DNA of 64,000 nucleotides from an uncultured archaeon (GTDB lineage: Archaea; Thermoproteota; Nitrososphaeria; JACIWG01): contig CALHLD010000024.1 in the NCBI GenBank assembly GCA_938034445.1, forward strand, positions 124,001-188,000, given 5' to 3'. The notes under the pieces were generated by a model that searched no databases, had not been told where the DNA came from, and was given only the letters and a program-made list of their open reading frames with translations. Both the position numbers and the translations under genes were made by a program. Below are positions 22,010-39,825 of the stretch, piece by piece; the first letter of the stretch is position 1, and every line of letters begins with the position of its first letter.

Positions 22010-22024
22010 ATTTTGCAAATATAG

Positions 22025-22100
22025 TGGGGTCGATGGGATTTGAACCCATGATTTCACGGGCCCGAACCGTGTAGCCTGGACCAGACTAGCTGACGACCCC
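22025..22100 (-). tRNA. tRNA-Pro(CGG)
   Basis: GGGGTCGTCAGCTAGTCTGGTCCAGGCTACACGGTTCGGGCCCGTGAAATCATGGGTTCAAATCCCATCGACCCCA. Confidence 0.95.
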
Positions 22101-22152
22101 AATACCATCAAAGAGATAACCATATATACCCCTTATTAAATCTAAAGTTGAT

Positions 22153-22266
22153 GCCGGGAGCGTGCCGAGATACACATCGCTCGAAAGCTCAGCCTGGTTA
22201 GAGCGCTGGACTCATAATCCAGAGGTCGCGGGTTCGAAACCTCAGGCGAAAAGCCCGCTCTCGGCA
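22153..22266 (+). tRNA. tRNA-Met(CAT), elongator-like, with two predicted non-canonical introns
   Basis: Acceptor GCCGGGA/TCTCGGC; D arm GCTCAGCCTGGTTAGAGC; anticodon arm CTGGA-CTCATAA-TCCAG; T arm GCGGG...CCCGC; ~25 extra nt before D arm and ~14 extra nt in T loop. Confidence 0.9.
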
Positions 22267-39733: not shown

Positions 39734-39825
39734 GGGCCTGTGGCTCAGCCAGGAAGAGCGGCTGGCTCTTAAAATTGGCTCCTGGAGAGACCAGTAGGTC
39801 CGGGGTTCAAATCCCCGCAGGCCCG
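39734..39825 (+). tRNA. tRNA-Lys(CTT) with ~18-nt canonical 37/38 intron
   Basis: GGGCCTGTGGCTCAGCCAGGAAGAGCGGCTGG-CTCTTA[intron]A-CCAGTAGGTCCGGGGTTCAAATCCCCGCAGGCCCG. Confidence 0.9.

Follow-up and report, generated by a model that had tools for sequence, protein, structure and literature searches.

Archaeal tRNA genes can carry non-canonical introns, which two published accounts describe as bounded by bulge-helix-bulge (BHB) or relaxed BHB motifs and as occurring several to a tRNA (PMC4090602, PMC6379350). Position 59/60 is already a listed intron position in the review text (PMC4090602), and 8/9 is absent from the examples given in that text; the position itself is not claimed as new here. 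The two predicted introns of the tRNA-Met gene described in this study resemble known non-canonical introns in being short (14 nt), in having bulge splice sites beside a 4-bp helix, in occurring together in one tRNA and in going with a predicted (alpha-beta)2 splicing endonuclease. They differ from them in that the splicing helix of intron 1 draws on the 5' strand of the acceptor stem, a copy of which is also found in the leader.

The closest earlier case in which an intron goes together with a 5' tRNA fragment is the Caldiarchaeum tRNA-Thr(GGU), where the fragment accompanies an extra intron near the same tRNA position (PMC3293823). The Caldiarchaeum fragment spans positions 1-27, stands 1.8 kb off or at a far greater distance and differs among members of a population (PMC3293823), whereas the copy described here is about 7 nt long, lies 2-16 nt upstream, is presumed to be on the same transcript and is kept across families. 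The permuted tRNA-Met of Thermofilum pendens is also comparable, with acceptor-strand sequence between the promoter and the tRNA 5' half and a permuted junction at 59/60, matching the position of intron 2 here (PMC3218864); in that gene, however, the sequence lying upstream is the 3' half, which ends up in the tRNA itself, whereas the element described here duplicates the 5' strand and leaves the 3' half where it usually stands. A literature search covering mostly open-access papers returned no account that links a leader copy to an 8/9 intron.

The elongator tRNA-Met gene and its host

The window, meaning the whole 64,000-nt stretch of DNA that was analysed, lies on contig C24 of a 1.8-Mb genome (G000) that is 95% complete. 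The nearest named relatives of this genome are the Nitrososphaeria MAGs DRTY7.bin_36 and MAG-19, with HR04 further off; judged by these relatives, the organism belongs to the class Nitrososphaeria rather than to the Thermoproteales setting that the original prediction had evoked.

The locus is predicted from its sequence to be a functional, single-copy elongator tRNA-Met gene, the elongator type being assigned from a CAU anticodon and from exons that are the same as in intronless elongator tRNA-Met genes across the class. A second elongator tRNA-Met gene was not found in the 95%-complete genome. The other CAU tRNAs are an initiator (L024) and a tRNA that has a canonical intron and resembles tRNA-Ile2 (L041), and the gene at 22164-22266 is therefore probably essential for its host. 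Three relatives (G001, G002 and G004) carry the same two insertions in a nearly identical mature tRNA, indicating that the insertions are due neither to chance nor to sequencing error. The default ARAGORN scan of the window did not report the gene, and Rfam returned a single distorted match (40 bits, 22178-22249) in the wrong register; both outcomes are expected because the introns were still in place.

Upstream of the gene, GAGATAACCATATATACC is the only site that scores like the promoters of the 43 other tRNAs in the genome. The distance from this promoter-like site to the leader copy is a constant 40 nt in four genomes, and the distance from promoter to acceptor differs by 2 nt in G004.

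Several other tRNA loci were noticed during the searches. At 39734-39825 (+) of the window, default ARAGORN reported a 'tRNA-Stop(tta)', which becomes tRNA-Lys(CTT) when introns are allowed and fits a Lys tRNA with a canonical intron. A tRNA-Leu(UAA) elsewhere in the host genome (L078, G000:C11:59150-59550) has a D-arm insertion of about 22 nt, part of which (TCGTCAGCG) is complementary to the exon near the 3' side of the anticodon stem (CGCTGACGA). Two 3' tRNA fragments ending in CCA, one of them like tRNA-Glu(TTC), were also seen (L087, G000:C50:7300-7645, and L086, G000:C40:1-700), as are left by elements integrated into tRNA genes. In another genome, a second elongator tRNA-Met (L160, G059:C1:501500-502000) has unrelated sequence in place of the part 3' of the T loop, as after integration. 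A tRNA-Tyr(GTA) was not found in the host genome by family search, ARAGORN or the T-arm pattern, and it may be heavily interrupted or lie in an assembly gap.

Exon and intron borders

Table 1. Features of the elongator tRNA-Met locus, in coordinates of the window.
Feature	Position	Strand	Basis
tRNA-Pro(CGG), divergent neighbour	22024..22100	-	ARAGORN and Rfam; context
Promoter-like BRE/TATA GAGATAACCATATATACC, possibly common to the divergent tRNA-Pro(CGG)	22113..22130	+	Score, spacing, conserved letters
Leader copy of the acceptor 5' strand, GCCGGGA + GCG	22153..22162	+	10 nt can pair with the 3' end CGCTCTCGGC
Exon 1: acceptor 5' strand GCCGAGA and U8	22164..22171	+	7/7 pairing with 22259-22265; invariant in four genomes
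Intron 1 at 8/9, 14 nt, ACACATCGCTCGAA	22172..22185	+	Helix 22166-22169 : 22180-22183 (CGAG:CTCG)
Exon 2, A9 to A59: D arm, anticodon arm (CAU), variable loop, T stem 5' strand, most of T loop	22186..22238	+	Homologous intronless genes
Intron 2 at 59/60 (T loop), 14 nt, ACCTCAGGCGAAAA	22239..22252	+	Helix 22233-22236 : 22247-22250 (TTCG:CGAA), T stem outer
Exon 3: G60, T stem 3' strand, acceptor 3' strand TCTCGGC, A73	22253..22266	+	

The original prediction had described an insertion between the acceptor stem and the D arm and one of about 14 nt in the T loop, and both are present. Its reading of a CAU elongator tRNA-Met with two non-canonical introns and none at 37/38 was likewise borne out, whereas the start of the tRNA had to be revised, as had the length and limits of intron 1. 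The tRNA had been begun at 22153, with an intron 1 of about 25 nt. The strand at 22164-22170 makes seven of seven Watson-Crick pairs with the acceptor 3' strand and is then followed by U8, a nucleotide that is nearly universal in tRNA, placing the true start (predicted mature 5' end GCCGAGAU) at 22164 and leaving an intron 1 of 14 nt. The strand first taken as the acceptor, GCCGGGA at 22153-22159, would put a G-U pair in the stem and a G at position 8, and a 25-nt intron from 22160 was rejected because it would leave no U8.

With both introns cut between bulge nucleotides 2 and 3, a standard 75-nt tRNA is obtained, and the genes of G001, G002 and G004 give the same result. The expectation that removing the two insertions restores a standard elongator Met cloverleaf was thus confirmed for the borders in Table 1. 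A BHB-type motif was found at both introns, in agreement with the suggested check for such motifs: intron 2 has a strict BHB (4-bp central helix, 3-nt bulges) with the T stem outside, and intron 1 shows the 4-bp helix and the letters of 3-nt bulges, but only two outer pairs and one inner pair, which makes it of the relaxed type. In G004 intron 2 is 13 nt long and its inner letters are changed. The borders rest on homology and motif, by which introns at 22172-22185 and 22239-22252 are almost certain. A permuted or split gene was considered and rejected, as the three exons stand in order within 22164-22266 and what lies upstream repeats the 5' strand.

The suggested check of the splicing endonuclease pointed to the two-subunit, broad-specificity type as predicted from the protein sequences. 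The genome has two PF01974 genes, one encoding a catalytic alpha subunit and the other a separate beta-like subunit in which the catalytic His and Lys motifs are missing. The alpha subunit is closest to the Aeropyrum (alpha-beta)2 enzyme and matches 3p1z end to end (3-178), including the loop region and the catalytic Tyr/His/Lys region; its loop GFYGKPLGIHKPK aligns without gaps to the Aeropyrum loop GYYGQPLDVEKPR, an alignment that does not single out the functional Lys. The loop of the (alpha-beta)2 enzyme has been described as conferring broad specificity (PMC6379350), and the predicted enzyme fits the removal of relaxed, non-canonical introns.

The leader copy and the 8/9 intron across the class

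The supposed acceptor strand of the original prediction is a leader-encoded second acceptor 5' strand, and it is a more unusual feature of the locus than the introns. The segment 22153-22162 can pair with the last 10 nt before A73. The usual archaeal TATA-to-start distance would put the copy inside the transcript, and the copy is predicted from this promoter spacing to be transcribed. In G004 divergence affects the 3' flank and the stretch from promoter to copy, with the copy itself unchanged. The copy is not a general trait of tRNAs in this genome: at the 43 other tRNAs no comparable leader copy was found, the best pairing run being 7 and most being 3-4.

A search requiring both insertion and copy had yielded f76 as a third family; a search of 400 class genomes in which the copy was not required recovered families f1, f9, f76, f81 and f84. 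Family f9 (HR04 and its genus) has a 35-55-nt insertion at the same position and the same kind of upstream copy. The survey set comprised 80 distinct elongator tRNA-Met genes from across the class with readable borders. An 8/9 insertion was seen in 22 of these, distributed over the five families, and all 22 have the copy, which pairs at 6-7 of 7 positions with the gene's own acceptor 3' strand and is separated from the acceptor by a spacer of 2-16 nt. Among the 58 genes without an 8/9 insertion none has the copy (two reach 6/7 pairing, neither of the GCCG type), and G464, a member of family f9, is without both insertion and copy. Searches for a Met-type 8/9 intron of at most 30 nt in 398 Thermoproteota genomes (roughly 320 of them outside the class) gave no convincing tRNA except this gene; those of the other matches to the 8/9 patterns that were inspected individually are not tRNAs.

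The pairing is kept as the letters change. The helix of intron 1 occurs as CGAG:CTCG, CGGG:CCTG, CGGG:CTCG and CGGG:CCCG, and retains four pairs in 21 of the 22 genes, with family f84 having 3/4 pairs. The copy reads GCCGRGA, GCCGGGG or GTCGGGA and follows the acceptor changes, matching its own 3' strand at 7/7 positions in 15 genes and at 6/7 in seven (an A-C mismatch at pair 7).

On an aRF1 tree, monophyly of the intron bearers was rejected (AU p 3.1e-6); five changes are required by the best tree, and well-supported branches force at least two. As the intron bearers are not one clade, the intron and the copy have, on this tree, changed together more than once. The independent contrasts on well-supported branches number only two, so that no phylogenetic sign test can reach significance.

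Further insertions were observed within these families. Two f76 genes (L199 and L200, in G654 and G663) are elongator tRNA-Met genes with insertions at 8/9, in the anticodon arm and in the variable region, and other f76 tRNA-Met genes also have a T-loop insertion. At two loci (L218 and L219, in G726 and G679), CTCGAAA stands between copy and acceptor and may record a tandem duplication of acceptor and intron.

Explanations for the upstream strand

The strict co-occurrence of the copy with intron 1 suggests a role in the removal of this intron. In the proposed mechanism, the transcript would begin with a leader of about 14 nt and contain EndA-type introns at 8/9 and 59/60. The helix of intron 1 and the acceptor stem are mutually exclusive because both use acceptor 5' nucleotides 3-6. 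By pairing with the acceptor 3' strand, the copy would free the true 5' strand for the splicing helix, and the (alpha-beta)2 endonuclease could then excise intron 1; the true strand would subsequently displace the copy, and RNase P would trim the leader. The strand swap, the action of the enzyme and the order of these steps are put forward as a model built on sequence and predicted folding. In Methanopyrus, 3' and 5' processing precede intron removal (PMC3695527), whereas the spare-strand model needs the reverse order for intron 1, with splicing before leader removal.

In silico, the acceptor stem of the leaderless G000 precursor closes and helix 1 has a probability of 0; with the leader present, the copy occupies the 3' strand, and the probability of helix 1 rises to about 0.7. 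For the 22 genes, helix 1 is cheaper to form with the native leader than with no leader, by 7.4 kcal/mol at 37 C and by 5.5 kcal/mol at 70 C. Shuffled leaders also cut this cost, the native ones being better by only about 1.5 kcal/mol, and much of the leader effect is therefore one of composition. Shuffles are a poor control for such GC-rich leaders, and natural leaders of intronless genes were added, against which the native leaders lower the cost by 5.9 (37 C) and 4.8 (70 C) kcal/mol. Besides the order of processing in Methanopyrus, three folding predictions stand against the mechanism: helix 1 is improbable in the free RNA of G004 and family f9 even with the leader; in G000 neither the T stem nor the intron-2 helix is left free by the copy; and the copy is predicted to be still paired after both introns are removed, so that a protein or a cleavage step must resolve the pairing. 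Overall, the mechanism taken as a whole, with the part that it assigns to the copy, is given an even chance of being right, and the probability is just as evenly balanced for the proposition that the spare strand is a repeatedly gained functional device holding the 3' strand, with intron 1 removed before 5' maturation.

The copy could instead be a scar of intron gain, left by a tandem duplication of the 5' end or by insertion and loss of a mobile element and having no role, with EndA cutting co-transcriptionally before the 3' strand exists. One such event would also predict the perfect co-occurrence; additionally, the Caldiarchaeum 5' tRNA-Thr fragment and its new intron arose together via an inserted element (PMC3293823), and the f81 leader has CTCGAAA, letters with which other 8/9 introns end. 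However, a neutral scar should decay, and the copy is kept between the deeply separated families f1 and f9, and also where the remaining leader is unalignable (spacers of 2-16 nt). The copy further tracks the acceptor sequence of its own gene, although its small pairing variation could partly reflect recent duplication. Combined, these observations leave a purely neutral scar possible and rather unlikely; a scar may also have been kept because it was helpful, in which case both readings would be true together.

A role of the copy at another step, such as 3'-end processing, RNase P timing, transcript stability or transcription start, with only an indirect link to intron 1, would suit its position at the predicted transcript start and the stem that it forms with the 3' end. 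It is an improbable reading given that the copy is absent from the 43 other tRNAs of the genome and from the 58 Met genes without an 8/9 intron.

The model in which the tRNA begins at 22153 and a 25-nt intron (about 22160-22185) is excised gains something from the ability of the upstream strand to form an acceptor stem and the same splicing helix, and from its usual distance from the promoter. Across the 22 genes, however, this start would place G, C or A at position 8 and an A-C mismatch in the stem of seven genes, whereas the downstream strand has 7/7 pairs followed by T in 22/22; the spacers, moreover, range from 2 to 16 nt. A start at 22153 is therefore very doubtful. That the gene is a decayed or unexpressed pseudogene, as its being missed or mis-scored by standard tRNA finders might hint, is hardly credible for the sole elongator tRNA-Met found in the genome, with exons, motifs and promoter kept in four species.

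Genes of this kind can be missed, or begun at the wrong base, by standard tools. The gain and loss of copy and intron together bear on how tRNA introns arise. An intron beside the acceptor stem poses a folding problem, in that the splicing helix and the stem compete for the same nucleotides; if the spare-strand mechanism is true, duplicating the strand in the leader would solve this problem simply and by RNA alone, and would fix splicing before RNase P.
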